From positions 1 to 36,492 of the IMG/VR virus record IMGVR_UViG_3300038441_001652: a DNA stretch of 36,492 nt; one strand, given 5' to 3'. Position 1 is the stretch's first letter; each line of letters begins with the position of its first letter. Positions 1-35,366 of this stretch are shown here, piece by piece. This DNA is from a virus. Below the pieces are notes generated by a model. That model was not told the DNA's origin. It did no database searches and worked only from the letters and a program-made list of their open reading frames with translations. The position numbers and the translations under genes were made by a program.

Positions 1-1
1 T

Positions 2-94
2 AGAAATTTAATGCGACCTTCTATTAACCAAGCTAGATCTGCTCTAGAAGCCATATTAATAAAGGGAGATTTTTCAGCCCCCAAAAACGGCTAA
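2..94 (+). CDS. Possible 3' end of an ORF entering from the left edge
   Basis: An open frame runs from the first bases to a TAA at 92-94, with an internal ATG at 11 that would give 27 residues. No Shine-Dalgarno sequence can be judged because the region upstream is off the window. If the window is a circular permutation, joining the last bases to the first keeps the frame open back to an ATG near 36440, giving a peptide of about 48 residues. There is no recognisable family. It may simply be chance. Confidence 0.2.
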   Translation, partial: RNLMRPSINQARSALEAILIKGDFSAPKNG

Positions 95-179
95 GTCTCT
101 ACCAATAGTTTAGATGTGTAGCGCCAAGGTTGCATACCCTGATACCCATTTGTAGGTTAACTATTAAATATTGACGTTT

Positions 180-225
180 AACATTATAATAACATGTTGA
201 CAACATCATAGCAACATGTTATATT
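180..225 (+). promoter_or_regulatory. Left early promoter with two 19-bp RHH operators
   Basis: A TTGACA (197-202) and TATATT (220-225) lie 17 bp apart, a near-consensus sigma70 promoter with an expected start near 232. Two 19-bp units, AACATTATAATAACATGTT (180-198) and AACATCATAGCAACATGTT (202-220), overlap it and begin 22 bp apart, about two helical turns. The first unit is identical to the one at 8608-8626 beside the RHH repressor gene. I infer that the repressor silences this promoter and the small-gene block downstream. Confidence 0.75.
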
Positions 226-255
226 AGTAATGCAACCAAACCAAAGGATGTTGAA

Positions 256-477
256 ATGAGTAATTTTGTTAATGATGGTTTATTAGATAAACAGTGGAAA
301 GAGGCTTATATTAAATGGGACAGTATCATGGAATGTATATCAACTTCGATTGATAGCACAGATATTGTGACATTGGCTAATATGTTAGCTGAATCAAAGA
401 AATATAAAAAGCAGTTAGATGAGCTATCTAACGCACGTTATGCAGCATGGACGAAATATATATTCAGGGGAAAGTAG
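256..477 (+). CDS. Hypothetical protein, 73 aa, first gene of early block
   Basis: This is the first gene after the operator-controlled promoter. It starts at ATG 256 behind an AAGG Shine-Dalgarno sequence (244-247). The product is small, soluble-looking and probably helical; the second half is rich in Lys, Glu and Leu and could form a short helix or coiled coil. There is no signal peptide or membrane segment, and I recognise no family. It ends one base before the start of the next gene, so the two are probably translated together. As the promoter-proximal gene of a repressed early operon, it is a candidate host-takeover or anti-defence factor, but this rests on position only. Confidence 0.7.
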   Translation: MSNFVNDGLLDKQWKEAYIKWDSIMECISTSIDSTDIVTLANMLAESKKYKKQLDELSNARYAAWTKYIFRGK

Positions 478-478
478 T

Positions 479-811
479 ATGAAAAGGTATCACGTAGTTT
501 TAGATGTGCGCGCATTGTCAGGTTTATTGTCGATACAACAAGAAGCGCCACTAGCAAAATGGGAAGTAACTTTCACTGATGTAGCAGGAAGTAAAAGTCA
601 GGTCTTAGAAGAGGCTTTTGCCTATGTACAGAGATGTTTAGATTATAGTCATGCAATACCAGCTGTGACGGGGAAATACAAACATCCAGTGCTGCAAGCT
701 AAAGTCAGAGAGATAACCATAGTTGAAGAGGGTGAGGAAGTTGCTAATTTCCATGTGCACGGCTGGACACAGAGCTGTTCATTTAAATTTTTAGGACACG
801 AGGGAGAATAG
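479..811 (+). CDS. Hypothetical protein, 110 aa
   Basis: I place the start at ATG 479, because AGGGGAAAG lies just upstream and the longer reading from 419 would overlap the preceding gene by 59 bases. The product begins MKRYHVVLDV and alternates beta-like stretches (residues 1-35 and 80-105) with a helix in the middle (about 40-55), suggesting a small alpha/beta fold. There are no membrane segments and I recognise no family. The next gene starts two bases after its stop, so it is part of a tightly packed operon. A minus-strand ORF across its 3' end is a shadow. Confidence 0.7.
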   Translation: MKRYHVVLDVRALSGLLSIQQEAPLAKWEVTFTDVAGSKSQVLEEAFAYVQRCLDYSHAIPAVTGKYKHPVLQAKVREITIVEEGEEVANFHVHGWTQSCSFKFLGHEGE

Positions 812-812
812 C

Positions 813-1091
813 ATGAAAGATCCATTAACATTGAACACTGAATATGTCATAGAACAGCTGAGGTCTCATCTTGGAATAAATCAATGGTACTGTGAGGAAG
901 AAGGCCTCTGCCGTGAAGAAGTGGAGTCTATGGCTTTAGGTGAGATGAAAAAGGCGATAAGGCTATTCGAACGTGATGACGACATGCATTGCAAGACAGA
1001 CGCTTTAGTAAGGTTGTCTTTGTTAGTGCAAGAGCTATGTGGATATTATTCAGACGCTGCTGAAAGGGCATACGAGATAGAGTGTTTATAA
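813..1091 (+). CDS. Hypothetical helical protein, 92 aa
   Basis: The start is ATG 813 behind a GGGAGAA Shine-Dalgarno sequence that sits inside the end of the preceding gene. The product is acidic and mainly helical, with cysteines scattered at about residues 27, 33, 59, 75 and 91 that do not form a recognisable metal-binding pattern. There is no membrane segment and I cannot assign a family. A gap of about 80 bases follows, with no convincing promoter, before the next gene. Confidence 0.65.
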   Translation: MKDPLTLNTEYVIEQLRSHLGINQWYCEEEGLCREEVESMALGEMKKAIRLFERDDDMHCKTDALVRLSLLVQELCGYYSDAAERAYEIECL

Positions 1092-1170
1092 TAGAGGCAA
1101 ATATAGCAGTGTTGACTAGGAAATGTTTTTGCTGCTGAATACACCGATAATAATATAGGAGAAGAAAGTT

Positions 1171-1605
1171 ATGCTTAGCACGTTATTTTTCATATGGTTG
1201 GAAGCAACATGTTTTGGTCTAGCGATAGTAATGATAGCTGTTGGCCTCATTACGATCATACAGATGATCAGTGATTATCTGTATAAGAAGCCGTCAGCGC
1301 AAGAGCCAGACATTGAAGCACCAGCGCCTAAGGCGCCCGTGGAGACACGAGAAATGGGAACGCAGACTAGGGAAATAGATTCCCACTGGGGCAGGGATCA
1401 TTTCGCTGCTCGTGCTGCAGAGATTGAGCTGCAACTCACGCTGCCTGTTATTCCTGAGCGCTGCACTAGGGCCTCAACAGTTAGGCACACCCCAATCGCG
1501 GTGAACACGGAGAGATTAGACCTTAGCACCGTGAACACAGAAATATTGGATCTCAACACCAGAGAGGCATTGTTGCAGTACCGCTTCCGAACTCTAATGA
1601 GATAA
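1171..1605 (+). CDS. Predicted membrane-anchored protein, 144 aa
   Basis: A strong Shine-Dalgarno sequence (TAGGAG) precedes ATG 1171. Residues about 5-33 form a hydrophobic segment likely to span the inner membrane, followed by a proline- and charge-rich linker (about 38-70) and a cytoplasmic or periplasmic tail. The tail contains a degenerate repeat, VNTERLDLST followed by VNTEILDLNT. No family is recognised. Small single-span proteins in phage early regions are often involved in superinfection exclusion or host membrane changes, but nothing here proves that. A minus-strand ORF overlapping 1398-1712 is a shadow. Confidence 0.65.
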   Translation: MLSTLFFIWLEATCFGLAIVMIAVGLITIIQMISDYLYKKPSAQEPDIEAPAPKAPVETREMGTQTREIDSHWGRDHFAARAAEIELQLTLPVIPERCTRASTVRHTPIAVNTERLDLSTVNTEILDLNTREALLQYRFRTLMR

Positions 1606-1614
1606 GAGGATATC

Positions 1615-1794
1615 ATGAATAGAATAGATATATTACTCAGAGCATATGACCACGAATTCAACCAGGAGGAGAGATATTTCCTGCTGCAGGAACTAGAGGA
1701 TGAGATTACCAAGGAAAAAGAGCGCCTTGAGCACGATATGGCAGTTGAGAATTATAAGCCGACACCTATAATCATTGACTACACACGTTTTTAG
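1615..1794 (+). CDS. Small charged helical protein, 59 aa
   Basis: This short gene lies between two larger ones. ATG 1615 follows AGAGGA, ten bases after the preceding stop, and the frame runs to TAG 1792-1794. The product begins MNRIDILLRAYDHEF and is rich in Glu, Lys and Leu between residues 15 and 42, probably one long helix or coiled coil, with an Ile- and Pro-containing tail. It is in register with the operon and fills what would otherwise be a 200-base gap. No family is recognised. Confidence 0.6.
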   Translation: MNRIDILLRAYDHEFNQEERYFLLQELEDEITKEKERLEHDMAVENYKPTPIIIDYTRF

Positions 1795-1814
1795 TCTCCA
1801 CCGCTGAGTAAGTT

Positions 1815-2057
1815 ATGCAATACGAATGCACATTTCGAGTTAATTACCTTACTGTGGATGGCGTCCATGGAGAAACCGAAGTGAAGGGCACTGTAATGGC
1901 CTCATCTGAGCAGGAAGCTATAGAGATAGCTAAGACAGCTTACATAGCGGTAGGGCACCTTACTTGTAAGCAGTTGAAAGGAAGGGGATATGGCAAAGCA
2001 AGCAATGTGCTTGATGGTTGGACTTATGAATTAATACACATGGAATCAGGAGAGTAA
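1815..2057 (+). CDS. Hypothetical protein, 80 aa
   Basis: ATG 1815 is preceded by a weak GAG-containing ribosome site. The first 30 residues are beta-like (alternating hydrophobic residues, as in YECTFRVNYLTVDG), then a helix of the pattern SSEQEAIEIAKTAY occurs at about 41-54. This layout is common in small phage proteins with a ferredoxin-like or KOW-like core, but I cannot assign a family. The stop is followed directly by the ATG of the next gene. Confidence 0.65.
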   Translation: MQYECTFRVNYLTVDGVHGETEVKGTVMASSEQEAIEIAKTAYIAVGHLTCKQLKGRGYGKASNVLDGWTYELIHMESGE

Positions 2058-2279
2058 ATGAACAAGAAAGAGATAATCCAGTTAGACTTTCTCTGCTACC
2101 TTAATACGTTCAGAGAACTTGACACGAATACACAGGACTTAGTGGCGAATGCTCATTTTGCAGCTATTGAGAGCTCTAATGCCCATTTCGAGGGCCTCAA
2201 TGCACATGATATGACCATGAATGCTAGGAAATATGACAGATATCTAGAGCTTATGAGAATCATATTCGAGAAAAAATGA
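2058..2279 (+). CDS. Hypothetical protein, 73 aa
   Basis: ATG 2058 immediately follows the upstream stop, with AGGAGAG a few bases before it, which indicates translational coupling. The protein is probably helical, with a short internal repeat around residues 30-55 (three NAH-containing stretches). There is no membrane segment and no recognised family. It ends the first cluster of the early block; a promoter-like -10 element and a 5'-leader hairpin follow before the next gene. Confidence 0.65.
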   Translation: MNKKEIIQLDFLCYLNTFRELDTNTQDLVANAHFAAIESSNAHFEGLNAHDMTMNARKYDRYLELMRIIFEKK

Positions 2280-2321
2280 ATTATTTTGCCACTACATATT
2301 AGACTACAGTAAATGTTGGTC

Positions 2322-2374
2322 TATAATGCCCTTAGTAGTAGGAATTGTCCTGCTACATAAACCAAAACCAAAGG
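2322..2374 (+). promoter_or_regulatory. Internal promoter candidate with 5'-end stem-loop leader
   Basis: A perfect -10 hexamer TATAAT lies at 2322-2327, but no convincing -35 element sits at the right spacing. The predicted start (near 2334) would put a 9-bp stem with a four-base loop (2335-2343 paired with 2348-2356, one G-U pair) at the extreme 5' end of the transcript. Then comes a leader with AACCAAAACCAAAGG (2360-2374), very like the leader at 234-247 of the first gene. A 5' stem-loop of this kind can stabilise mRNA; that role is inferred. Confidence 0.45.
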
Positions 2375-2381
2375 TACGAGT

Positions 2382-2681
2382 ATGACTACAATACAAGACG
2401 AAAACTATAAATCTGCTGAGATTTCTATAGCAACAGTCCGCAAACTTCTCGATGAGTTTGTACAATTCCATACTGCTAAAAGCAGTGAAGCTTGGGAGGA
2501 AATTGACAGTGCTGTGGAAAACGAAGCATTGTGCTCATCTTTGATTATCGATGATAGCAAAGGGGAATACTTGGGAGAGCTAGCTAAGTTAGCCAATCAC
2601 CTGTTTGTAGAAATCGAGGCGTTTTTCCACTTTATTCACGAAGTGGCCAACTCAGTTGATGAAGAGCTGGATCAACAGTAG
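2382..2681 (+). CDS. Hypothetical acidic helical protein, 99 aa
   Basis: The start is ATG 2382 after AAGG. The product is strongly acidic and mainly helical, with hydrophobic residues in heptad-like spacing from about residue 15 to 30 and from about 60 to 90. It has no membrane segment and I recognise no family. Highly acidic small phage proteins can mimic DNA or bind host polymerase, but nothing in the sequence singles out a target. It is first in a second early cluster behind its own promoter candidate, and is followed by a strong hairpin at 2690-2718. Confidence 0.65.
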   Translation: MTTIQDENYKSAEISIATVRKLLDEFVQFHTAKSSEAWEEIDSAVENEALCSSLIIDDSKGEYLGELAKLANHLFVEIEAFFHFIHEVANSVDEELDQQ

Positions 2682-2689
2682 TTAATTAA

Positions 2690-2718
2690 GTGGTGTGTGT
2701 AGTTTTTACATACACCAC
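2690..2718 (+). repeat. Intergenic 12-bp hairpin
   Basis: GTGGTGTGTGTA (2690-2701) pairs with TACATACACCAC (2707-2718) around a GTTTT loop, with 11 Watson-Crick pairs and one G-U pair. No T-run follows, so it is not a classic intrinsic terminator. It may be an RNA processing site, an attenuator or a protein-binding site. It sits nine bases after a stop codon. Confidence 0.6.
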
Positions 2719-2750
2719 GCTTACACCACAATACAAATCACAACATAAAT

Positions 2751-2966
2751 ATGTTAAAACAAAAAATACAAGAGTTGCTATTAGTGGCTCATGCGGTTAA
2801 CAAAGTAACTAATGCTTTCGTTAAGGAAGCAGAAGCTCAACCATACTATGCAACAGACGAGTTAGCTAACATGGTTGCAGAATATATTTTCGTACTAGAG
2901 CGAGCCGTTATAGACATGAAGAACATGTTCAGCTTACAGGGCAGGGAGCATAAACGTGGGAATTAA
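2751..2966 (+). CDS. Hypothetical helical protein, 71 aa
   Basis: ATG 2751 has no evident Shine-Dalgarno sequence; the upstream stretch is A-rich (ACAACATAAAT), so initiation may rely on an unstructured leader or on the hairpin upstream. The product is entirely helix-compatible, with two probable helices (about 3-27 and 34-60) and a basic C-terminus. There is no membrane segment and no recognised family. A gene with a good ribosome site follows 14 bases later. Confidence 0.55.
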   Translation: MLKQKIQELLLVAHAVNKVTNAFVKEAEAQPYYATDELANMVAEYIFVLERAVIDMKNMFSLQGREHKRGN

Positions 2967-2980
2967 TAAGGAGAGATAAT

Positions 2981-3343
2981 ATGCATGAGGAAGAAGGCGA
3001 CTTAGCACACAGGGTGTACTTACAGGCGCGCAAGAACGCTGTCAGTGATGATGAGTTAACAATAATCATGAGTGAGGTTCTTGAAGTAGTAAAGCAATAC
3101 CTCCCTGACGTGCCAGTAGAAGTAGAGGCTTATACTAGGCAAGATTTATTCGGTGAACATCAACCGCGGCAGATAAACTTCCTGTTAAAACATAAATGGC
3201 ATATAGCGCTCCTTGAGTTTTATTTGACACCAGAAGGGGTTCAGGGTAACAGACCTTTTACCCGCGAATTCCTAGTAAATAAACTACCAGCTGAGGTAGT
3301 GGCTGGCTATATAAGGGCAATCGAAAATAAGGAGAAACAATAA
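2981..3343 (+). CDS. Hypothetical protein, 120 aa
   Basis: ATG 2981 follows AAGGAGAG. The protein looks globular: a helical N-terminal half (about 8-42), then a beta-containing core with two Lys-His or Trp-His stretches (about 70-85), then a C-terminal helix (about 95-118). No catalytic motif or family is recognised. The stop overlaps the next start in a TAATG arrangement, so the two genes are translationally coupled. Confidence 0.65.
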   Translation: MHEEEGDLAHRVYLQARKNAVSDDELTIIMSEVLEVVKQYLPDVPVEVEAYTRQDLFGEHQPRQINFLLKHKWHIALLEFYLTPEGVQGNRPFTREFLVNKLPAEVVAGYIRAIENKEKQ

Positions 3344-3606
3344 TGTTACCAAGAATGTGGCACCATCTGTTTAAAAGAAGCTACGATTTACCAGCACGTC
3401 CTGCTGATACACCGGCACCATCGCCAGCAAACCGCGATGGAGAGCGTGTCAGCTTATGGGATGACGAAGATCCAGACCTCGTTGAGGTAAGGGTAGTAGC
3501 AGAGAGAACAGGCACGCCAACAGCTAAGTCTCCAACACACTTCACTGATAAAGTCACCTCAGAGAAAGAGCGTTTCAGACCAGGCTTATTTATTCAAATA
3601 CCATAA
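3343..3606 (+). CDS. Hypothetical Pro-rich, probably disordered protein, 87 aa
   Basis: ATG 3343 overlaps the preceding stop and follows GGAGAAAC. Residues about 18-32 are rich in Pro and Ala (ARPADTPAPSPANRD), and the rest is charged with few hydrophobic runs, which suggests an intrinsically disordered protein or a flexible adaptor. No domain is recognisable. It shares the tight spacing of the early block, so I regard it as real in spite of its low complexity. Confidence 0.55.
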   Translation: MLPRMWHHLFKRSYDLPARPADTPAPSPANRDGERVSLWDDEDPDLVEVRVVAERTGTPTAKSPTHFTDKVTSEKERFRPGLFIQIP

Positions 3607-3623
3607 AGACAAGGGAAAGTAAT

Positions 3624-3935
3624 ATGATCAAAGATAAAGAAAAATATAAACTCGAGCTAATCAATAAGCTGAGTGAATTAAGGTTATTAATTGTAGAGAA
3701 GCAGAAATGCATGGAGTCTACAATCAATTCATTACACAACCAGAAGAACAATTCGCACAACTATCACCTAGAATTAGATGTATTTCCAAGACAGGCGACT
3801 TACTATGCAGAAGAATACTTACAAGGCATAGATGATTGTTTAGGGTACATACAGCATGATGTAGATTTTCTAAGGAAATCAACGCGTGACTACATTCTTC
3901 TTATAAATAGGATGGACAATCCAGATCTTGTTTAA
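3624..3935 (+). CDS. Hypothetical helical protein, 103 aa
   Basis: ATG 3624 follows a purine-rich ribosome site (GGGAAAG). The first 45 residues have the heptad-like pattern of a coiled coil (many Lys, Glu, Leu and Ile), followed by a less charged region with aromatic residues (HNYHLELD, YYAEEYLQG) and a basic C-terminus. There is no membrane segment and no recognised family. It is one of the more AT-rich members of the block. Confidence 0.65.
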   Translation: MIKDKEKYKLELINKLSELRLLIVEKQKCMESTINSLHNQKNNSHNYHLELDVFPRQATYYAEEYLQGIDDCLGYIQHDVDFLRKSTRDYILLINRMDNPDLV

Positions 3936-3987
3936 ATCATAATAATTTAACCTCGTTTCCATAAATGTGATTATAGGATTAATAAAT

Positions 3988-4296
3988 ATGTCCGAACAAC
4001 AAACACCTAACCAAGCTATAAAGAACATTCAAATACATCAAGATCGTGTTTTAGTGCAAGAATACGTGAGTGCTATTGAAATGCTTATTGAAATGCTAGG
4101 TTCTGTATCACGTAACTTAGTACCAGTAATAATAAAGCAAGTTGAAGAACTTAGGACGACAGCCCCTGACAGAATGATATTTGCAAGTTATTACTTAGCT
4201 GCTGATGATCAGGTGAAAATACTGCCACAAGCGTCTTTAATGGCTATACGCAAAATCAATATTGCCTATAAGCAAATGTATGATTATTCGAAATGA
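3988..4296 (+). CDS. Hypothetical helical protein, 102 aa
   Basis: I take ATG 3988 as the start because AGGA lies about ten bases upstream; the longer reading begins at a GTG (3967) with no ribosome site. The protein is almost wholly helical, with hydrophobic positions around 35-60 (SAIEMLIEMLGSVSRNLV). No membrane segment is certain and no family is recognised. Its stop overlaps the next start (ATGA), coupling it to the diphosphohydrolase-like gene. Confidence 0.65.
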   Translation: MSEQQTPNQAIKNIQIHQDRVLVQEYVSAIEMLIEMLGSVSRNLVPVIIKQVEELRTTAPDRMIFASYYLAADDQVKILPQASLMAIRKINIAYKQMYDYSK

Positions 4297-4601
4297 ACGT
4301 ATTTTATAAGAATGACGCTGGAAAGCCGGACCTAACCCTAATACCCTACAACGCACTGTCGCAGGCCGCGCTTGTAGCGATGTTTGGGGTTGGAAAATAT
4401 GGCCGTGATAACTGGAAGCGGCAGAACAACGACAGCGACACTGTACAACGTTTCATCGCTGCTGCTCTCAGACATCTCTTCCAGCGCTCAGCGGGTGAGC
4501 AGCATGACGCAGAGACTGGCCTAGACCACCTCGCCCATGCTGCTATCTCGTGCTTGTTCGCGTTGGAGTTAGTAATGGAGGAAGTTGGAAATGAAAAATG
4601 A
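4293..4601 (+). CDS. dATP/dGTP diphosphohydrolase N-terminal-like protein (DUF5664 type)
   Basis: The protein has the layout of the phage DUF5664 / dGTP_diPhyd_N family: KPDLTLIPYNAL near residues 11-22, GKYGRDNW (34-41), AALRHLFQR (57-65), a D-A-E-T-G-L-D-H-L-A-H-A stretch (73-84) and a hydrophobic C-terminal helix. This is an all-alpha, MazG-like fold, and the conserved acidic and His residues are expected to bind metal and nucleotide. The family is linked to removal or remodelling of purine dNTPs in phages; the substrate here is inferred. At 102 aa it matches a single-domain member. It is coupled to the gene before it by an ATGA overlap and overlaps the next by 11 bases. Confidence 0.7.
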   Translation: MNVFYKNDAGKPDLTLIPYNALSQAALVAMFGVGKYGRDNWKRQNNDSDTVQRFIAAALRHLFQRSAGEQHDAETGLDHLAHAAISCLFALELVMEEVGNEK

Positions 4602-4992
4602 CGTTACCATCTTCCCTTGCGAACGACGTCTTATGGGAGCTATATCGTCTGATGTAGAAGATCAGGATACGCTCTATATATTTAAGATGAGCCTAATCAC
4701 TGATGTTACTTTCGAAAGGCTAGAAAGTGGATGTTGCGTAATAAAGTATAGGACCAGCCTCGGCAGGAGTTTTCTTTCTGCTACAACGTTTGAGGATATC
4801 TTCGAGGCATTAGTCTATTATTCTGACATCGTTAATTGTATATTAGATGGCGGTCACATGCTAACTATACGCTACTGGCGCGAGAAATATCCAGATTTCG
4901 CACGCTACGAGATAATCAGATTTCATGATCAAGAATACACTCCTAGCTTGGCTTTAACAGGAGGTAAGTTAAAATTAAGTTCACTAGTGTAA
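4591..4992 (+). CDS. Hypothetical protein, 133 aa
   Basis: I place the start at ATG 4591, eight bases after a strong GGAGGA site, rather than at the upstream TTG. The product is a mixed alpha/beta protein with no membrane segment; residues about 35-60 look like paired beta strands (CCVIKYRTSLGRSFLSA) and a helix follows. The family is unknown. The last codons and the stop lie inside a perfect 16-bp inverted repeat (4972-5013), so its 3' end carries a strong RNA hairpin. Confidence 0.65.
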   Translation: MKNDVTIFPCERRLMGAISSDVEDQDTLYIFKMSLITDVTFERLESGCCVIKYRTSLGRSFLSATTFEDIFEALVYYSDIVNCILDGGHMLTIRYWREKYPDFARYEIIRFHDQEYTPSLALTGGKLKLSSLV

Positions 4993-5013
4993 TTCCGCTA
5001 GTGAACTTAATTT
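4972..5013 (+). repeat. Perfect 16-bp inverted repeat at gene end
   Basis: AAATTAAGTTCACTAG (4972-4987) is exactly matched by its reverse complement at 4998-5013, with a ten-base loop that contains the TAA stop of the preceding gene. No T-run follows; instead a Shine-Dalgarno sequence (AGGAG) for the next gene comes directly after. It could be a transcription pause, an RNase III-type processing site, or an mRNA 3'-end stabiliser. Confidence 0.8.
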
Positions 5014-5022
5014 AGGAGTAAA

Positions 5023-5310
5023 ATGACTAATCATGAAAACTTTGTTTGGCTATTATTGCCTGCAATAGGAATATGCGTTTTTGTTAAGATGTATTCCTGT
5101 GCATGTTTATGCAGCAGAAATAAACCAAGCAATCCATGGGTTCACCAGCCGCTAGTCTCACAAGACGAAGAGGCGCAGGTGGCAGAATATAAAAAGATTG
5201 AGTGGATTGACGACACGCCTTCCGAAATTAAGGAGGCAATGCTAGACCGGGAATGGATACGTTCTATTTCTGCGACGGCCGTTATTCCGCCAATTAGGTT
5301 ATCTAGGTAA
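5023..5310 (+). CDS. Predicted small membrane protein, 95 aa
   Basis: ATG 5023 follows AGGAG. Residues about 6-30 form a hydrophobic segment with three cysteines at its end (CACLC), either a membrane anchor or, less likely, a signal sequence; there is no clear lipobox. The remainder is hydrophilic and acidic, then ends in a short hydrophobic and basic stretch. No family is recognised. Phage proteins of this shape include exclusion proteins, but function is unknown. Its minus-strand overlap (5142-5378) is a shadow. Confidence 0.6.
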   Translation: MTNHENFVWLLLPAIGICVFVKMYSCACLCSRNKPSNPWVHQPLVSQDEEAQVAEYKKIEWIDDTPSEIKEAMLDREWIRSISATAVIPPIRLSR

Positions 5311-5411
5311 CCTAGAAATATAGCCATGATCCATATTCTATGGGACAATAATATTAAGGGACTACCAACAACAACCACATATGGAAATTAACATCCAGGT
5401 TTGAGGTAGAT

Positions 5412-5837
5412 ATGGAATTATGGGTTATACTAGGTTTAGCCGCACTTGCGGTGCTCGGCTTCGCATTAACAGCGCTTTACTTAGGCTATTTTTCTAAGGG
5501 CAAACCTCCAGAGGATGAAGGCCCCCCGATGATATTCCCCCTCGCTTCTGCTTTCAATGATCCAGAATATTATGAGTATTTTGCCTATAACAATGAAAGG
5601 GGTCTAACAGCTAGGGAGCAAGGGTACCAATCAGCACATTTAATGTGGATGTTCGAGAACTTTATGCGATGGAGAGCATGGGAAGCAGGGGTAAACGATT
5701 TACCTAGATATACTACGCCCGACTTTCCTTTTTGGCTCTGGCCGGAAGAGATTACTTGGCAAGATGTAGTGAGAAGGGACGCAGTATTAGAAGAACTTAA
5801 AAGAGGTCCTGTTGTACTAAGGCAGGTACCGTTTTAA
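5412..5837 (+). CDS. Predicted membrane-anchored protein, 141 aa
   Basis: ATG 5412 follows GAGGTAG. Residues 4-28 form a clear single membrane span (WVILGLAALAVLGFALTALYL), followed by a Pro-rich acidic stretch and a Trp-rich soluble domain (Trp at about 79, 87, 89, 108, 110 and 115). No family is recognised. The gene ends at 5837, four bases into the end of the convergent primase-helicase gene, and is the last of the plus-strand early block. Confidence 0.65.
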   Translation: MELWVILGLAALAVLGFALTALYLGYFSKGKPPEDEGPPMIFPLASAFNDPEYYEYFAYNNERGLTAREQGYQSAHLMWMFENFMRWRAWEAGVNDLPRYTTPDFPFWLWPEEITWQDVVRRDAVLEELKRGPVVLRQVPF

Positions 5838-8299
5838 GCCCTAATTTTAGCATGCTTAGGGACCCTGTATACTGTGCAGGGTCTTCCGCCTGTTATTTGC
5901 TTTGTACGGACCTCTAGAACCCCTTGGCGCTCCATATCCTCGAGCAACCCATTACGCTCGGCTTGCTTCATTTCACGTGAGGCTTCGCCTATTTGCCCTA
6001 GGGTTACCCAATCTCTGTGCTTATGGTTAAGCTTCTGGATGGCTTTGAATAGCTTAATGAAAGAATCCTCGTGCTTGCTCTTACCTTGGTCATAGATAGC
6101 ATTGGTTATGATATTATCTGCACAGGCATAGGCTACGTCTTTCGCCCACTCATATATCTTCCTAGAGATAACTTCACCTTCATGGCAGATAAGGGAGATC
6201 TTTAGGGCTTGGTGAGGTATGCGTCGCTGGATCGAAGCGGCAACCAGCTCCCCTCGGTCCTCTAGGGTACTTGCTTGCTTACGTATTTCGTCCTGGAACT
6301 GAGCGGCTTCCTTAGCTAGCTTCTCATCTTCGAAAGGAATAAGCTTCGGGGTAAACTTAGTTGGGTCTCGATCAGAAAGCCCCTTAGGTATCGATACGAT
6401 CTTATGGCCTAGCTCCATGATCTCTTTAGGGATGTCCCTAGGATCATTGGTATGCATTTTGGTAGGGATGAAGCTCTTATTGTCTATGATAGGCAACATC
6501 CTAGCCAAGAACCCTCCACTTGCTGCGTCTGTAAGGTAGTTCTTATAGAACAGCTCGGGCTGCGCTGTACCGTACACTGAAAGGTGCGGGTAGTGAACTA
6601 AAGGGCTATTAGCACTGTCTAGCTTAGCGCCATATGCGGCAACGGATGCGTCTGTCATGCTATATAGGTCTAGCAAACTATCTTTCACTGCTACCATGAA
6701 GGGTGACGCGTTTTTAGCGCTGGTCTTGTCTAGAAATTTAATCTGGAATTCGCGCCATATGTAGATCGCGCTACCTCGTGAGTTAAGTAACTGCGTACCT
6801 ATACCGTGGGCAGACTCAGGGACCTGGCTGGAATATTCTGGCTGGATAACTCCCATCTTTGCTAGGAACTTCTCACCACAGATAGCGCCTGCGTCCTTCC
6901 CCTCCCCGCTCTTTGCAAGACCTACTGCATATAGGTTAGGCGAGCAACGGTTAGGGCCAATAATGCGGTGGTGATATAACCCTGCAAGCGGCACAAAGCT
7001 ACTAGCAAACGCCATAGTGCGGTTAGGTACGGGTGCTGTGCCTAGGGCGTACTCTGTCCAAGCTGCAATGGCGTCGGGCGCGGTATCGATTAGGTGCTCA
7101 GGGAAGTATTTATCCGTCATGATCGGGGCGAAGTCTTTGTCAGCCTCGTCTTCTGACGTAAACGTACGGCGTTCTAGCGGAGGGTTCTCATGGTAATCTA
7201 GGACCTGCACAGACTGTAACCTGCCGCGTATATCCTTACGCTTCACTACCTTGTAGCCGTTATGATGCTCTACCCCTTTGTGCCGTGCCATCCAGAATAT
7301 ACTTCCTGCCGCTACACTCCCATTAAAGCCCTTCCATCTAGACCTAAGATCAGACGAGCCCTTATATTTATCAGCGTCTAAAGAGGACCAATCATCCCAT
7401 ACTTCTATACCAAGCCCAGAGCTTTTAATAGCCATGCCAACCTTGAGCCACTCTTCATATCCGAACTTCGAAGGATGCATTCTAGGATCAGCTAAAACGT
7501 TTAGGATGCGTTCCCTTAGAGTCATCTGCTCTGCGTCAGTGCTTAGATAGGATTTGTAATCTGCCTTAGTAAAGAGAGGTTTATTTTCGTCCTTTACAAT
7601 GTGGATAACTTGGTTATATGATGCTTCGCACGCAGCAGGAGGGTATTCACTTATACTCAATGCGTTTGTCTCAACATCCATCTTAGATTTTTGTTTCTCT
7701 TCTGCTGCTAAGAGTTGTGTTGCGTCTATCAACTCGCCAGGACCTAATATTACCTCTGCCAAATTCCGCGTTTCTGCTGTACAGGATGGCAGATACCAAC
7801 GCCACGTAGGGTTGCTACTGCTAGGGTCAATCTGCTCCTTACCATAGGGGAAAGAAGCGATAACATGATCAGCTATTATCTTAAACTGCTCGCAATCTAC
7901 AGGCTTATCGAAGAATAATACCGCTCTCCATTTTTCCCTAGGAGCTTCATTCTCTACCTGCCGCATGTGGCAATGGGTAGTATGCAGGATGTAATAATAA
8001 CCCTTCAACGTCTCCTGAATGATATCCTTAGTCAGGTGCGGAACATTATCGCTCTTGTTGTCAAAATCCAACACTAGGCCAAAAGCCCCGTCTATGTGCT
8101 CTCTAGCGCAGTGCACAGGACCAGGGAAACGCGCGAGACTGAACTGCCTGTTCATCTTCTCTTCTTTGATGCAAGCCTTAGGCGGCTTGATATCATGCAT
8201 TTTGAAGAAGTATCTAACTATCTCATCTATAGTGAATGGATAGCGCTTACCACGCGCAGCGTCTCTAGGGTTCGCAAAGATACTAATTTCAACTTTCAA
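5834..8299 (-). CDS. Bifunctional primase-helicase
   Basis: The 821-aa protein looks like an archaeo-eukaryotic-type primase fused to a DUF3987-like helicase. Visible elements are the primase acidic motif VLDFD (76-80), RAVLFFDKPV (125-134), the D-P-x(n)-W-R-x-Y-L-P-S stretch (158-172), a PriCT_2-like domain (about 280-340, with WLKVGMAI and RWKGF), and an ATPase Walker A (about 462-470, SGEGKD). The usual Walker A Ser/Thr is Asp here. I use the TTG start at 8299 because AAGGGGG lies seven bases upstream and the next Met is at residue 34. It is oriented against both neighbouring plus-strand blocks and probably shares a transcript with the RHH repressor gene. Its role is to start DNA replication. 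Confidence 0.85.
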   Translation of the reverse strand: MKVEISIFANPRDAARGKRYPFTIDEIVRYFFKMHDIKPPKACIKEEKMNRQFSLARFPGPVHCAREHIDGAFGLVLDFDNKSDNVPHLTKDIIQETLKGYYYILHTTHCHMRQVENEAPREKWRAVLFFDKPVDCEQFKIIADHVIASFPYGKEQIDPSSSNPTWRWYLPSCTAETRNLAEVILGPGELIDATQLLAAEEKQKSKMDVETNALSISEYPPAACEASYNQVIHIVKDENKPLFTKADYKSYLSTDAEQMTLRERILNVLADPRMHPSKFGYEEWLKVGMAIKSSGLGIEVWDDWSSLDADKYKGSSDLRSRWKGFNGSVAAGSIFWMARHKGVEHHNGYKVVKRKDIRGRLQSVQVLDYHENPPLERRTFTSEDEADKDFAPIMTDKYFPEHLIDTAPDAIAAWTEYALGTAPVPNRTMAFASSFVPLAGLYHHRIIGPNRCSPNLYAVGLAKSGEGKDAGAICGEKFLAKMGVIQPEYSSQVPESAHGIGTQLLNSRGSAIYIWREFQIKFLDKTSAKNASPFMVAVKDSLLDLYSMTDASVAAYGAKLDSANSPLVHYPHLSVYGTAQPELFYKNYLTDAASGGFLARMLPIIDNKSFIPTKMHTNDPRDIPKEIMELGHKIVSIPKGLSDRDPTKFTPKLIPFEDEKLAKEAAQFQDEIRKQASTLEDRGELVAASIQRRIPHQALKISLICHEGEVISRKIYEWAKDVAYACADNIITNAIYDQGKSKHEDSFIKLFKAIQKLNHKHRDWVTLGQIGEASREMKQAERNGLLEDMERQGVLEVRTKQITGGRPCTVYRVPKHAKIRA
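7600..7608 (-). promoter_or_regulatory. DnaA-box match inside primase gene
   Basis: TGTGGATAA on the plus strand is the exact complement of the consensus DnaA box TTATCCACA. It lies inside the primase-helicase gene, and the surrounding 14 bases are identical to those at 35514-35527. One match inside a coding region may be chance; the pair of matches near the right end makes it worth noting. Confidence 0.3.
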
Positions 8300-8376
8300 T
8301 GTATCCCCCTTAGATAAAATAAGCTATTGGTTGCGTTCGTAAGTTGTAAACGCTATCATATCAGGAACGGATTAGT

Positions 8377-8562
8377 CTAGGGTAAATTTTTGTGCTTAGT
8401 CTCGTCATAGTTCGTATCGACGTGGTCCATAAGGATTTTAGCAATATGACCAGACAAATGACGGTAATTAACGCGAGCCTCGAGTACAAGTTTTTCCTTG
8501 TATTCCTTGGGAATCACAAACATTACTCGAGCTTCGTTTGGACCTAAATTACTAATACTCAT
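8377..8562 (-). CDS. Arc-like ribbon-helix-helix repressor
   Basis: I place the start at ATG 8562 (61 aa), behind AAAGG at a good distance; the longer reading runs back through the operator. The sequence NEARVMFVIPKEYKEKLVLEARVNYRHLSGHIAKIL fits a beta strand followed by two helices, the Arc/MetJ fold that forms dimers and binds operators through the strand. Operator units AACAT/ATGTT lie directly upstream of its gene and also at the left early promoter, so it probably represses itself, the divergent replication operon and the early block. The primase-helicase gene lies downstream on the same strand. Confidence 0.85.
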   Translation of the reverse strand: MSISNLGPNEARVMFVIPKEYKEKLVLEARVNYRHLSGHIAKILMDHVDTNYDETKHKNLP

Positions 8563-8574
8563 AATATGCCTTTT

Positions 8575-8631
8575 AACATTATAACAACATTGCGTCAGCA
8601 TGTTGACAACATTATAATAACATGTTATATG
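8575..8631. promoter_or_regulatory. Divergent promoters with RHH operators
   Basis: Minus strand: TCAACA (8606-8601) and a perfect TATAAT (8583-8578), 17 bp apart, drive the repressor. Plus strand: TTGACA (8603-8608) and TATATG (8626-8631), 17 bp apart, drive the replication operon. The 19-bp unit AACATTATAATAACATGTT (8608-8626) is identical to the left early operator at 180-198, and a second, weaker unit begins at 8575. The plus promoter core, TTGACA through TATAT, is also nearly identical to the left one at 197-224. Repressor binding would block all three promoters. Confidence 0.75.
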
Positions 8632-8692
8632 TTTATAATCAAGTGATAAATATCATTTGGCTTTGAGACAAACAACTTAATATGAGTGCATT

Positions 8693-9061
8693 ATGACACA
8701 TACCATAGAAGCATTGAGTTCTGCATGGGTTGAGTGCAAGCGGCAAGAAGAAGAAGCAAACCGCAAACGCTTAGAAATAGAACAAGAATTATGCCAATTA
8801 GCACGCAGAGAAATACCTGCCCAGGGTTCTGCTACGCTTGGCTCAGTTAAAGTCACCACTGGCTTCGATCGCAAGTGGGATGTGGAAGTTTTGACACAGA
8901 TATACAGAACAAAACCTCCTGTGTTCCCCTTTAAGGTAAGTTGGAAAGAAGATCGCAGAGCTACAAGCAAGCTCGAGATCGAGCATGCCGAGGTAATGGC
9001 GGTGTTTATGCCAGCTCTGACTATCAGAGAAAAGAAACCGTACTTCACATTAGCGGAGTAA
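8693..9061 (+). CDS. Hypothetical protein, 122 aa, first gene of replication operon
   Basis: This is the first gene of the plus-strand replication/recombination operon. The N-terminal third (about 8-45) is a charged helix resembling a coiled coil (ECKRQEEEANRKRLEIEQEL), followed by a beta-rich domain (about 50-118) with GSVKVTTGFDRKWDVEVL. This pattern occurs in small phage proteins encoded beside ssDNA annealing or nuclease genes, but I cannot name the family with certainty. The Shine-Dalgarno sequence is weak (GAGTG). A minus-strand ORF of similar length is a shadow. Confidence 0.65.
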   Translation: MTHTIEALSSAWVECKRQEEEANRKRLEIEQELCQLARREIPAQGSATLGSVKVTTGFDRKWDVEVLTQIYRTKPPVFPFKVSWKEDRRATSKLEIEHAEVMAVFMPALTIREKKPYFTLAE

Positions 9062-9066
9062 CCGCC

Positions 9067-9207
9067 ATGACATCAGAAGAAGCTTACGAAGCCTATAAGC
9101 GGCAGATGAAAATAGTAGAGGGCAACCTTTGCCGCCTTAATCAGTTAGGCGCGATGTACAAACAACTATGTGAACAAGAAGGAAAACAGGAGAAAGAAAA
9201 TGTTTAA
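9067..9207 (+). CDS. Small helical protein, 46 aa
   Basis: ATG 9067 lies six bases after the preceding stop, with GGAG just upstream. It encodes 46 residues of mainly charged helix (EEAYEAYKRQMKIVEGNL at about 4-21, then a Lys/Glu-rich tail). Its last bases overlap the start of the next gene (ATG 9200), so it is coupled. No family is recognised. It is supported by operon spacing rather than by content. Confidence 0.55.
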   Translation: MTSEEAYEAYKRQMKIVEGNLCRLNQLGAMYKQLCEQEGKQEKENV

Positions 9208-10108
9208 TCCAGATATGATAGAAACAGGGAGGCAGATTGAGCCCCCACGTATTCTTATTTATGGTGAGCCAGGTATAGGTAAAACCAAGTTTGCCTCCGA
9301 ATCAGAATCGCCAATCGTTTTAGACTTTGAAGGTAGCAGCAAAACCTTCCAGATGGCACGCATTAAGAAAGATGCTCTTACTTCATCTAACATCGTGTTG
9401 GAAGCTATTAGATATCTATACAAAGCTGAACACCCTTACAAGACAGTAGTACTTGATACAGTAGACTGGTTAGAGCGCATGCTATGTGACGAGATCGCTA
9501 AAGAGCATAAGGCACAGGCTATAGACGACAATAAGGTGAAGGCTCTAGGATTCGGCAGAGGATACACCCTAGTAGTTAATAAGTTCAGAGAGATTTTGCA
9601 TGCTCTAGATTACCTCGTGCAACATAAGGGCATGACTGTCATCTTATGCTGCCATCACAAGGTAAAAAGGATCGAAGAGCCTGACAACGAGGGCTATGAC
9701 ATCCACACACTAAAACTGCACGATAAGGTGCGTGAGCTTATGCAAGAATGGTGTGACTGCATATTATTCGCCAAGCTGAAAGTCCATGTGTCTTCTACGG
9801 ACGCAGGGTTCGGTAAGAAGATAACTAAAGGCCATACAGGCGACGTAGTCCTACATACAAGGAAATCTGCGTCTTATCTAGCTAAGAGTAGGTACCAGAT
9901 CCCAGATGAAATACCGCTTAGCTTCAAGGCGTTCTGGGATGCCTTCGTGCGTGATACTGGTTTTAACCAAGCGCAAAAACCTCTCGCTCCACAAACAAGA
10001 ACAGCAAAAGTAGTACCCATTACACCTACTACGCCAACCTCAACTACTTCTGCTGCCTTTCAAACTGCAAATGGTGCTTATAACCACGCAGAATACCTAG
10101 AACTCTAA
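9200..10108 (+). CDS. RecA-like NTPase (Sak4/AAA_24 type)
   Basis: I place the start at ATG 9200 behind CAGGAGAAAG. The 302-aa protein has a Walker A, GEPGIGKT (22-29), a Walker B-like VVLDTVDW (82-90), and a following ILCCHHK stretch (148-154) typical of the single-domain RecA-like phage NTPases grouped with Sak4 and AAA_24. These act in single-strand annealing or recombination together with a phage ssDNA-binding protein. The C-terminus (about 265-290) is Thr/Pro-rich and probably disordered. The next gene codes for exactly such an ssDNA-binding-like protein (DUF669), which supports the role. Confidence 0.85.
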   Translation: MFNPDMIETGRQIEPPRILIYGEPGIGKTKFASESESPIVLDFEGSSKTFQMARIKKDALTSSNIVLEAIRYLYKAEHPYKTVVLDTVDWLERMLCDEIAKEHKAQAIDDNKVKALGFGRGYTLVVNKFREILHALDYLVQHKGMTVILCCHHKVKRIEEPDNEGYDIHTLKLHDKVRELMQEWCDCILFAKLKVHVSSTDAGFGKKITKGHTGDVVLHTRKSASYLAKSRYQIPDEIPLSFKAFWDAFVRDTGFNQAQKPLAPQTRTAKVVPITPTTPTSTTSAAFQTANGAYNHAEYLEL

Positions 10109-10122
10109 CTAAAGGAAACAAC

Positions 10123-10557
10123 ATGACAAGTTTTTATTTCGACACCAGGGAATACACACCCGACTCTAAGTACGGCGCTATGCCAGACGGCACTTACAAT
10201 GCCATGGTTGTAAAGGCAGAAGAGAGGGTATCTAAAACTACTAATACCCCTTACTTATCGCTAGAACTCGAGATCCTCGAGGGTAAGTACAAAGGCCGTA
10301 AGGTATTCGAGAACCTCTTTATCAATGGCTCAGAGACTGCTCAGAACATCGCAAAAAACAAGCTCAACGGCATTGCTAATGCGTTAGGTTTAGTGGTGAT
10401 CAACAGCGAGAAGGATTTTACCTTCAAACCAATGTCTGTGGTTCTTGCTACTAAAGAAGATAAGAATGAGATCAAGAAGTACTTGCCGAAGCAGCAGAAT
10501 GTAGAGCCTGCTCATTCTAAGGCAGCGCCTCAAATCCACGATTCAATACCGTTCTAA
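10123..10557 (+). CDS. DUF669-family ssDNA-binding-like protein
   Basis: The 144-aa protein shows the DUF669 pattern: an N-terminal GTYNAMVVKAEERVSKTTNTP (about 23-43), GKYKGRKVFENLFING (about 55-70), then a helix and a variable tail. Family members are encoded beside Sak4-like NTPases and are thought to bind ssDNA. The extreme C-terminus is HDSIPF, which resembles the acidic DIPF tip that bacterial SSB uses to recruit partners. ATG 10123 follows AAAGGAAAC. It is two bases before the nuclease gene. Confidence 0.85.
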   Translation: MTSFYFDTREYTPDSKYGAMPDGTYNAMVVKAEERVSKTTNTPYLSLELEILEGKYKGRKVFENLFINGSETAQNIAKNKLNGIANALGLVVINSEKDFTFKPMSVVLATKEDKNEIKKYLPKQQNVEPAHSKAAPQIHDSIPF

Positions 10558-10559
10558 CA

Positions 10560-11378
10560 ATGTTAGTAGATCGTATCTATCAGCATTATGAACAGCAGCA
10601 TGAGGTGGCGCCCCCAAGGTTCCACCTCGGTGCTAGCCAGCTTGGCGCCGATTGCGAGCGCTATGTCTGGATGAGTTATCGTTGGTTCGCCAGCGAGGAC
10701 TTCGAAGGCAGGAAGCTAAGGCTGTTTGATACTGGTAAACGAGAAGAATTCAGGCTGCTTGATGAGTTAAAAGCGATTGGTGTTCAGGTGAAGTTCATCA
10801 GTGATGATCCTGATTTGCAGCATAGAGTATCTGCGCTTAGCGGGCACTTTGGCGGCTCTCTTGATGCAATCGCTACACACATAGATCCTATGGATCCTGA
10901 GAAGCCTTACATACTTGAGTTCAAAACGCACAACACTAAGTCGTTTAACGACCTAAAGAAAAATGGTGTCGTTCAGGCCAAGTGGCAGCACTACGTGCAA
11001 ATGCAGATTTATATGGGGCTAATGGAAATCCCTCAGGCTATCTATCTTGCGGTCTGTAAAGATAACGATGAGCTTTACGAGGAAGAAGTTGTCTTCGATG
11101 AAGAGGTGTTCTCACAACTGATGCAGAAAGCGAGAAGGCTTGTTAAATCGCCCTCCGCACCAGATAAGCTGCACAATAGCCCACAGTTCTTCAAATGTAA
11201 ATGGTGCCCTATGCTAGACGTATGCCATAATGGCACTAAAGCAGCCAAGAGCTGCCGCACCTGTGTTCATTCCGCACCTCATGAGTCAGGCACATGGCTA
11301 TGCACTAAACATGGGGCTACCCTAAGCAACGAACAGCAATTAGCAGCATGCGATGAGTATACTGCAATAGAGTTATGA
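10560..11378 (+). CDS. Cas4-like PD-(D/E)XK nuclease with Fe-S cluster
   Basis: The 272-aa protein has nuclease signatures GGSLDA (98-103, with D102) and LEFKTHN (119-125, with E120 and K122), followed by QMQIY (147-151). Cys32 together with C213, C216 and C222 in CKWCPMLDVC gives the four-cysteine layout of a 4Fe-4S cluster, as in Cas4 and AddB-type nucleases. A further cysteine group, C232, C235, C248 and C264, suggests an added zinc-binding knuckle at the C-terminus. It probably resects DNA for phage recombination. It starts at ATG 10560, two bases after the DUF669 stop. Confidence 0.85.
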   Translation: MLVDRIYQHYEQQHEVAPPRFHLGASQLGADCERYVWMSYRWFASEDFEGRKLRLFDTGKREEFRLLDELKAIGVQVKFISDDPDLQHRVSALSGHFGGSLDAIATHIDPMDPEKPYILEFKTHNTKSFNDLKKNGVVQAKWQHYVQMQIYMGLMEIPQAIYLAVCKDNDELYEEEVVFDEEVFSQLMQKARRLVKSPSAPDKLHNSPQFFKCKWCPMLDVCHNGTKAAKSCRTCVHSAPHESGTWLCTKHGATLSNEQQLAACDEYTAIEL

Positions 11379-11379
11379 T

Positions 11380-13011
11380 ATGGAATTACGTTATTATCAA
11401 GCGGAGTCAGTGGCTAGGACGATGTTATCCTTGCGAGACTCTAGCTCCAACCCATTAGTTGTATTACCCCCAGGAGCTGGTAAAAGCGCTACCATGGGGG
11501 CAATCACTGCCGAACTTGGCGTTCATAGAAGTAAAAAGCTTATCATCGCGCACCGCCTTGAGTTAGTGGAGCAGAACTATAACGCTGTTAAAGCTATTAA
11601 TTCAGGAGCTAGCGTTAGCATTTACTCTAATTCAGCAGGAGAAAAAGATTTCAGCGGCGATGTTGTAGTAGCAAGTATCCAATCTCTTGCCGCCTTACCA
11701 TCTGAAAAGCTGCCCGAGTTCAGCCATCTCTTGATCGATGAGTGCCACATGGTAAATACTGTGGAAATGGGAGAATATAGACGGATTATTTCCGCTCTCA
11801 ACACTCTAAGACGCACTCCCGTAATAGGGATGAGTGCCACCCCCTACCGCTTAGCGGGCGGATATCTTCACAAGGCGAAAGATAGAATCTTTACAGAAAT
11901 AGCCCATGCAGTTCCTATGGCAGAGCTAATAGAAAAGGGATACCTATCACCATTCGCTCATAAAGACTCTATAGAAAGGGTAGATACATCTGAGATAAGC
12001 GTTCATAAAGGAGATTTCGCTCAATATGAATGCGATCAGGCGTTCAACAATACTCCGCTAATCACTGCTGCTATCCAAGATATTCTATCTTACGCTAAAG
12101 GGAGAGATAGCTGGATTGTATTTTGTACTAGCGTAGATCACGCTCATAAAGTCATGAGAGAATTGTGGCGTTACGGAGTTAGCGCCGTAACCGTGACAGG
12201 GGACACTCATATAGATGAACGCAAGATGATCGTGCAGCAGTTTAGGGAAAAGAAAATTAGGGCCATATGCAATTACGATGTGTTAAGCACAGGGTTTGAT
12301 GCTCCTAACGTTGATATGGTAGTGCTACTTAGACCCACAAAAAGCCCAGGGCTGTACGTACAAATGGTAGGGCGTGGCACACGCCTATACCCTAACAAAA
12401 AAGACTGCCTGGTTTTAGATTACGGCCAAAACATTGAGCGCTTTGGGCCAGTAGATAAGGTGAAGGTTAAGCAAGTTAATAATAAAGCTGTAGCAGAAAC
12501 CATCCCTCTGAAGGTCTGTCCTGACTGCCGTGAGGTTATAGGTGATACTGAAAAGATCTGCTCTTCCTGCGGCAAGGTATTTCCTGTGGTTGAGCGTAAG
12601 CGCACACTCCCTGGGACACGCGCCTCCAATTTAGAGGTATTGCGAGGCAGCCTGATGAAGGCTAAATTCGATGGTAAGCAAATATTACAAGTGGTAAAAC
12701 ATAGCGTAGTACTGCACCAGAAGCTCAATAAACCCACAAGCGTTAGAGTGGATTATTATCTGAATATGCTTGATAAGGTGTCTGAATGGATATGCCCAGA
12801 GCACACGGGATATGCTAAAACACAGGCCTTAAAATGGTGGAATCTACACACAGGTAATGACGATATGCCAGAGACTGCAGAAGACCTAAGATATGCTATG
12901 CATAACGTTGGTCTAGCACAGAAGATTGTAGTAGAGTTAGATAATGATTTCCCTAGAATCATAACTAGATATCGCAAAGATAGCCCATTTGGAGGAGTAA
13001 CTCTTGAGTGA
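11380..13011 (+). CDS. SF2 DEAD/DEAH-box helicase
   Basis: The 543-aa protein carries the SF2 motifs in order: PPGAGKS (30-36), DECH (120-123), SATPY (152-156), then the C-terminal RecA-like domain with IVFCTS, STGFD and QMVGRGTR (about 245-350). A four-cysteine zinc ribbon (CPDC and CSSC, about residues 385-405) follows, and a further helical domain of about 140 residues ends the protein. It resembles SSL2/RadD-type phage helicases used in replication or recombination. Its start, ATG 11380, follows one base after the TGA of the nuclease gene. Confidence 0.9.
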   Translation: MELRYYQAESVARTMLSLRDSSSNPLVVLPPGAGKSATMGAITAELGVHRSKKLIIAHRLELVEQNYNAVKAINSGASVSIYSNSAGEKDFSGDVVVASIQSLAALPSEKLPEFSHLLIDECHMVNTVEMGEYRRIISALNTLRRTPVIGMSATPYRLAGGYLHKAKDRIFTEIAHAVPMAELIEKGYLSPFAHKDSIERVDTSEISVHKGDFAQYECDQAFNNTPLITAAIQDILSYAKGRDSWIVFCTSVDHAHKVMRELWRYGVSAVTVTGDTHIDERKMIVQQFREKKIRAICNYDVLSTGFDAPNVDMVVLLRPTKSPGLYVQMVGRGTRLYPNKKDCLVLDYGQNIERFGPVDKVKVKQVNNKAVAETIPLKVCPDCREVIGDTEKICSSCGKVFPVVERKRTLPGTRASNLEVLRGSLMKAKFDGKQILQVVKHSVVLHQKLNKPTSVRVDYYLNMLDKVSEWICPEHTGYAKTQALKWWNLHTGNDDMPETAEDLRYAMHNVGLAQKIVVELDNDFPRIITRYRKDSPFGGVTLE

Positions 13012-13026
13012 TCCATTAACACTCTG

Positions 13027-13055
13027 TTGACAATAGATTATGTATCTTATATTAA
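13027..13055 (+). promoter_or_regulatory. Promoter candidate before the membrane-protein pair
   Basis: A perfect TTGACA (13027-13032) is followed 17 bp later by TATTAA (13050-13055). An alternative TATATT (13048-13053) would be at a 15-bp spacing. It sits in the 69-base gap after the helicase gene, before the first of two small membrane-protein genes, and so may give them separate expression. A CTCTA...TAGAG inverted repeat covering the start point (13057-13074) could be a binding site. Confidence 0.5.
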
Positions 13056-13080
13056 TCTCTAGTATATTATAGAGATCGTC

Positions 13081-13335
13081 ATGGAACCAGAAGACATTGA
13101 AGTAACACTAAGGAAGAGCATAAAGAAGTTCGGAGGAGGGCCAGAGTTCTCGAACCAGTACGGTTCTTTAGGTTATACTCAGTTACAGTCTGAAAAGCCT
13201 AATAAGATAGATTTCTATATATATAAGCAGGAGCTATATAAAAAACTCAGGAATTACACGGTAGGATTAGGGTTGAGCTTGACCATTGTAATCGCACTTG
13301 CCACTATATATTTACGCTTAACATTAGGAGAGTAA
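13081..13335 (+). CDS. Small single-span membrane protein, 84 aa
   Basis: The first 55 residues are hydrophilic (basic, then Gly- and Ser-containing), and residues about 59-80 form a hydrophobic span (TVGLGLSLTIVIALATIYL) close to the C-terminus. This suggests an N-in, tail-anchored topology. The gene follows a strong promoter candidate, ends one base before the next gene, and that neighbour has the same tail-anchored layout. No family is recognised; a role in membrane interference or exclusion is possible but unproven. A lysis role is less likely because the lysis genes are elsewhere. Confidence 0.6.
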   Translation: MEPEDIEVTLRKSIKKFGGGPEFSNQYGSLGYTQLQSEKPNKIDFYIYKQELYKKLRNYTVGLGLSLTIVIALATIYLRLTLGE

Positions 13336-13336
13336 T

Positions 13337-13609
13337 ATGAAACTGGAGAACTCAGTAGTATCTACCAAGGAATACATCGATATCCAAATGGAGAGCACTC
13401 ACGACAAATTAGCTCTTAGGGCAGAAGATCGTTTCAATAAGATTATCGATCGTATGGACTCTAAATTTGATCATATGGACTCTAAATTTGACCGTATTGA
13501 GGCAAAATTCGATGCCAGGTTTAATCACCTAGACACCAGGTTCAATTGGATCGGCGGTCTAGTGGTCACACTGATCATCGCTATCTTTATCAATATCTTT
13601 ATTAGGTAG
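13337..13609 (+). CDS. Tail-anchored coiled-coil protein, 90 aa
   Basis: ATG 13337 follows AGGAG. Residues about 30-66 form heptad repeats with a repeated MDSKFD unit at about 40-52, then IEAKFD and LDTRF, a typical trimeric or tetrameric coiled coil. A membrane span lies at about 71-89 (IGGLVVTLIIAIFINIFI). The repeat is visible in DNA, where the same 17-base run of coding sequence occurs twice in tandem near 13456-13493. Proteins of this architecture recur in phages and mobile elements, mostly without known function. Confidence 0.65.
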   Translation: MKLENSVVSTKEYIDIQMESTHDKLALRAEDRFNKIIDRMDSKFDHMDSKFDRIEAKFDARFNHLDTRFNWIGGLVVTLIIAIFINIFIR

Positions 13610-13612
13610 ACC

Positions 13613-35305: not shown

Positions 35306-35366
35306 ATAACACAACTCTATTTTTAGTTGAAGAGTAGATCTATTCTCCACACCTGTCAAAAAAACA

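Follow-up and report, generated by a model that had tools for sequence, protein, structure and literature searches.

The IMG/VR virus record IMGVR_UViG_3300038441_001652 (36,492 bases, classed as linear), the whole of which forms the window analysed here, derives from an uncultured podovirus-like (short-tailed) phage and carries, at positions 256-5837, a block of seventeen small co-directed genes (Table 1). A preliminary description, made from the sequence alone, had presented this block as seventeen tightly packed early genes, and the open reading frames (ORFs) lie where it placed them, after small corrections of the starts of the second (ATG at 479), thirteenth (ATG at 3988) and fifteenth (ATG at 4591) genes. 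The seventeen genes are real. Together they cover 91 % of the block on the plus strand and, using a greedy count of non-overlapping plus-strand ORFs of at least 59 amino acids, sixteen could be distinguished, whereas 300 Markov shuffles averaged 2.5 and never exceeded seven. A codon model trained on twenty other genes of the window, and compared with fifty spurious ORFs, scored all seventeen highest in their own frame, with 15/17 surpassing at least 95 % of the spurious ORFs. The genes are joined by three overlaps (1, 4 and 11 nt), one zero gap and gaps of at most 102 nt, in agreement with the overlaps and short gaps described earlier. The good ribosome binding sites that had been claimed are found in front of most genes, while the Shine-Dalgarno motif is weak (3 nt) at 479, 1815 and 4293 and absent at 2751. 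A strong hydrophobic segment occurs in exactly the three products, encoded at 1171, 5023 and 5412, that had been regarded as membrane-anchored, and the proline-rich composition of the gene 11 product and the acidity of several others (gene 8 among them) were likewise correctly recognised. For the gene 2 product, AlphaFold without an alignment suggested a beta-beta-alpha-beta-beta arrangement at low confidence (predicted local distance difference test score, pLDDT, only 62). The region 4950-5035, which includes an AT-rich hairpin, folds with a z-score of -5.3 and an energy of -26 kcal/mol; the hairpin is possibly an attenuator, an RNase site or a terminator, if not a typical one.

The preliminary description had recognised a known family in a single product and had proposed profile searches of each. 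These searches (Pfam, PHROGs and PADLOC for all seventeen products, and NCBIfam for ten) assigned only gene 14. The other sixteen products lacked significant matches to Pfam and PHROGs, while PADLOC returned none for any of the seventeen and NCBIfam none for the ten compared. No member of a known defence or anti-defence family was distinguished by these comparisons, of which PADLOC covers defence and not anti-defence. The products clearly do not all fall into known families, which would have contradicted the preliminary description, although such an outcome is hardly attainable for an environmental phage. Among PDB sequences the sixteen orphans had no match, and the only match of gene 14, to a nanobody, is ascribed to chance; tblastn of the sixteen orphans against 50,697 phages returned no significant match. 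Furthermore, no close relative of the block was found by megablast of positions 1-12000, nor any relative among approximately 240 loci gathered via the portal and terminase. A tblastn comparison against plasmids, with eight of the seventeen proteins as a concatenated query, gave nothing, and the same type of query against 49 related viral records, run without a positive control, was empty. Scan matches of genes 10 and 15 were rejected, as they were confined to the surroundings of a single 8-mer shared with unrelated proteins. The absence of relatives refers to the collections searched.

The block is preceded by a promoter (P1) that agrees with the consensus at 11/12 positions and has a TG-extended -10 element; in terms of its sequence, P1 is real. 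It is placed within four AACAT units, beginning at position 180 and following an exact 11-bp period, at which 0/200 shuffles reached even three units. A second array, situated between a leftward gene for a 61-amino acid protein and a rightward operon, incorporates two promoters, namely a near-twin of P1 directed rightward (TTGACA-17-TATATG, 8601-8631) and a leftward promoter (TCAACA-17-TATAAT). A 29-nt promoter-operator pattern with 22 specified bases is identical at 195 and 8601, and occurs nowhere else in the window and in 0/100 shuffles. The exact operator pattern was found in no other viral contig. A looser AACAT array, present in many contigs, was discarded, with none of these contigs containing a relative of the 61-amino acid protein or of the early genes, and the few promoter-like cases representing simple repeats. 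The leading promoter had previously been described as repressed; the promoter itself stands, within an operator-like array, and its repression is probable in view of this arrangement.

The 61-amino acid protein encoded beside the second array is a candidate for the repressor. Arc and Mnt have the ribbon-helix-helix (RHH) fold, and dimers of this type occupy repeated subsites next to one another. In a documented case, RelB recognises four 6-bp repeats, and its dimers all bind to the same helical face (PMC2812701). When residues 2-61 of the protein were searched, the only match among PDB sequences was the Mnt repressor of P22 (E-value 0.76, in register), and the only Pfam match was TraY, another RHH family (E-value 0.068). 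The second array starts 12 nt upstream of the ATG of this gene. As for P22 Arc/Mnt and RelB, a small RHH-like protein is thus encoded next to its own predicted operator, in which the subsites are repeated approximately one helical turn apart. The system differs from these in having direct 11-bp units, four or five in number, at each of two promoters in a single phage, and from the established Arc/Mnt repressors in that its match to Mnt reaches an E-value of only 0.76 and its binding is predicted. The AACAT arrays and this gene constitute a clean candidate repressor-operator pair.

Table 1. Coordinates of the genes and regulatory features of the early block and of the second early region in the window.
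Feature	Position	Strand	Description
P1 and operator array 1	180-225	+	P1 = TTGACA-17-TATATT at 197-225, within four AACATnnnnnn units
Gene 1	256-477	+	73 aa orphan
Gene 2	479-811	+	110 aa orphan
Gene 3	813-1091	+	92 aa acidic orphan
Gene 4	1171-1605	+	144 aa orphan; one N-terminal hydrophobic helix, then soluble tail
Gene 5	1615-1794	+	59 aa acidic orphan
Gene 6	1815-2057	+	80 aa orphan
Gene 7	2058-2279	+	73 aa orphan
Possible internal promoter	2300-2327	+	TAGACT-16-TATAAT before gene 8; 10/12 positions, such matches being common by chance
Gene 8	2382-2681	+	99 aa very acidic orphan (isoelectric point 4.2)
Gene 9	2751-2966	+	71 aa orphan; no Shine-Dalgarno motif
Gene 10	2981-3343	+	120 aa orphan
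Gene 11	3343-3606	+	87 aa orphan; 13 % proline, probably disordered
Gene 12	3624-3935	+	103 aa orphan
Gene 13	3988-4296	+	102 aa orphan
Gene 14	4293-4601	+	102 aa; DUF5664 / dGTP_diPhyd_N (PF18909), dATP/dGTP pyrophosphohydrolase-type domain
Gene 15	4591-4992	+	133 aa orphan
AT-rich hairpin	4972-5013	+	spans stop codon of gene 15 and gap before gene 16
Gene 16	5023-5310	+	95 aa orphan; N-terminal hydrophobic segment; weakest coding score
Gene 17	5412-5837	+	141 aa orphan; N-terminal hydrophobic segment
RHH-like protein	8377-8562	-	61 aa; candidate repressor of both early promoters; ATG at 8562, AAAAGG upstream; weak Mnt and TraY matches; adjoins array 2
Operator array 2	8575-8631	+	five 11-bp units (one AGCAT) at 8575-8629; two promoters
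Second early operon	8693-13858	+	AAA_24 (Sak4-like) ATPase, DUF669, PD-(D/E)XK nuclease, DEAD-box helicase, HTH_17 protein; near-twin promoter upstream
aa, amino acids.

The block is likely to represent the first early operon of this phage, placed under an RHH repressor and composed of fast-evolving accessory genes. The seventeen genes would be read by the host RNA polymerase from P1, a sigma-70 promoter. The RHH protein most likely binds the tandem 11-bp AACAT sites over P1 and its near-twin, and its binding would shut off both early operons as well as the repressor's own gene. Considering the geometry of the arrays, the twin promoters, the adjoining RHH-like gene and the binding of RHH proteins to repeated subsites, one small autoregulated repressor acting on both operons appears to be the most economical, and the most likely, model. 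The products of the block are probably fast-evolving accessory proteins, some of which may act on host enzymes, the membrane or defence, while others may be dispensable. Several observations weigh against this interpretation. The RHH assignment has weak scores, and an AlphaFold model of the candidate repressor, produced without an alignment, does not adopt the RHH fold (pLDDT 72; predicted template-modelling score 0.49; low confidence). The -10 element of the near-twin promoter is poorer (TATATG), and gene 9 lacks a Shine-Dalgarno motif. The block may not form a single transcript, given its gaps of 52-102 nt, the hairpin before gene 16 and the possible internal promoters, and its designation as early derives from the promoter and position only.

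Early regions of phages are known for host-takeover genes, and the preliminary description had considered the block the likeliest place for an undescribed system of this kind. A dedicated island for anti-defence or host takeover could accordingly make up most of the block, with several genes jointly forming such a system. The leading early-type position, the small size and orphan status of the genes and the three membrane-anchored products are consistent with this, and anti-defence genes are also reported to be concentrated in the plasmid leading region (PMC11541004). However, there is no significant family match besides DUF5664, no sub-cluster conserved in other phages, and there are neither paralogues nor repeats within the block that would mark a coordinated set, and an island of this type is unlikely. 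As no relative carries the same gene set, conservation of a gene pair or module cannot be demonstrated. A narrower version, which is doubtful but conceivable, places one or more undescribed modules for anti-defence or host takeover within the block, such as the three single-span membrane proteins acting at the inner membrane, expressed jointly with the recombination genes under one RHH repressor reading 11-bp tandem sites. The early-type operon of orphan genes anticipated in the preliminary description, with a single assignable product and a probably repressed promoter, is borne out. Its position provides a reasonable prior for takeover or anti-defence functions and nothing more, with neither a family, a relative nor a reliable fold in favour of them; nothing in the sequence of the block singles out a new system.

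The regulatory arrangement could alternatively belong to a lysogeny (immunity) circuit, in which the phage would be temperate, and perhaps plasmid-like, with the RHH protein as its prophage repressor. One type of operator over both early promoters, together with an adjacent divergent gene for a small regulator, recalls immunity regions. However, neither a tyrosine nor a serine recombinase was found in the record, which may be incomplete (no PF00589 or PF00239 match), and no partition genes were noticed in it. Furthermore, small RHH proteins also effect early shut-off in lytic growth, as does Arc of P22. A lysogeny circuit is therefore considered improbable, although, with no integrase found, the repressor could serve either as a lytic shut-off switch or as a lysogeny repressor.

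That a good part of the ORFs represent chance or miscalled frames is very improbable. The two lowest codon scores, those of the membrane proteins encoded at 1171 and 5023 (equalled by 10 % and 16 % of the spurious ORFs, respectively), whose composition differs from the training set, and the one missing Shine-Dalgarno motif are set against the own-frame scores of all seventeen genes and a tiling far above that of the shuffles.

The one assigned product, that of gene 14, matches PF18909 (E-value 4e-26; 91 bits, where the curated cut-off is 27; positions 6-94 of the 99-position profile) and phrog_801 (E-value 9e-30). It retains 24 invariant columns of the family, with R60, H61, G68, E69, D72, E74, H79 and H82, among others, invariant in five sequences. 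In common with the DUF5664 proteins of Arthrobacter phage Wayne and Klebsiella phage KL01, it keeps the motifs FG..KY....W, AA..RH and GE..D.E.G..H.AH, while it differs from other DUF5664 proteins as a short stand-alone form of at most about 46 % identity. The stand-alone DUF5664 protein of phage Wayne converts dATP, dUTP and dGTP to monophosphates (PMC12884076). Judging from its family, the gene 14 product probably trims the deoxynucleoside triphosphate pool, with hydrolysis of dATP and dGTP to monophosphates. Participation of gene 14 in a 2-aminoadenine (Z) genome pathway, as suggested by the DUF5664 domains that occur alone or fused to DUF550 in Z-genome phages, was rejected as barely credible, provided that the record does not lack part of the genome, since PurZ is missing (no PurZ/PurA homologue in the record by PF00709, with positive controls in 14/14 cases), no Z-genome genes lie beside it, no phage DNA polymerase was noticed among the genes examined, and the domain, found in 813 phage records, is also present in phages with canonical genomes (PMC12884076).

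Beyond the early block, the second array is followed by a rightward recombination and replication operon, at the end of which (13613-13858) an HTH_17/MerR-like excisionase-type protein is encoded, despite the lack of an integrase match in the record. The right two thirds of the record carry podovirus-type virion genes on the minus strand. These include, by comparison with PHROGs, a portal/head-tail adaptor (phrog_332), a major head protein (phrog_3437), a tail protein (phrog_376) and a large terminase (phrog_2), as well as a 1065-amino acid internal virion protein with relatives at 25-28 % identity in Vibrio, Klebsiella and environmental podoviruses. The closest sequence found was a 4.9-kb contig (L004), whose capsid-region proteins are 50-67 % identical, and no whole close relative of the record was found. 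Relatives are thus available for the capsid genes, and for the early block none. A 53-nt direct repeat (87 % identical; 34784-34836 and 35367-35419) lies on either side of a minus-strand ORF (34799-35359) without a match in Pfam or PHROGs. When the ends of the record are joined (36133-36492 to 1-84), a minus-strand frame of 147 codons remains open, which is a weak hint of a complete permuted genome, with 31 % of random joins also showing an ATG before a stop. No Rfam families or tRNA were found.

Early blocks of orphan genes are usual in phages that lack cultured relatives. For example, the environmental podovirus MW202801.1 (ctQWt234, Manatee Spring) contains at 744-6632 approximately eighteen small plus-strand genes, nearly all hypothetical and with DUF5664 near the end, and thus resembles the block in arrangement; of ten products tested, six match no PHROG. 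Apart from DUF5664 (46 % identity), the two blocks share no sequence similarity, and MW202801.1 differs in the presence of an integrase and in its neighbouring genes. MW202485.1 (Podoviridae sp. ctHz2215), which is listed first among annotated genomes matching the internal virion protein (27 %), shares with the record capsid genes at 28-45 % identity, an exonuclease, a helicase and a VapE-type primase, while its own run of small genes (1395-3805) has nothing in common with the block. The block described here is more orphan-rich (16/17), which fits with a nearest known relative only about 60 % identical in its capsid proteins.

The finding is real and ordinary in kind, the block occupying the usual site of fast-evolving accessory genes, and as it stands it describes an uncultured phage with an orphan-rich early operon, as expected. 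Host inhibitors and anti-defence proteins have in the past come from phage early genes, and the block would, if tested, yield sixteen proteins without relatives in the collections searched. The two operator arrays, furthermore, provide a concrete and cheap handle on early-gene control in this phage.

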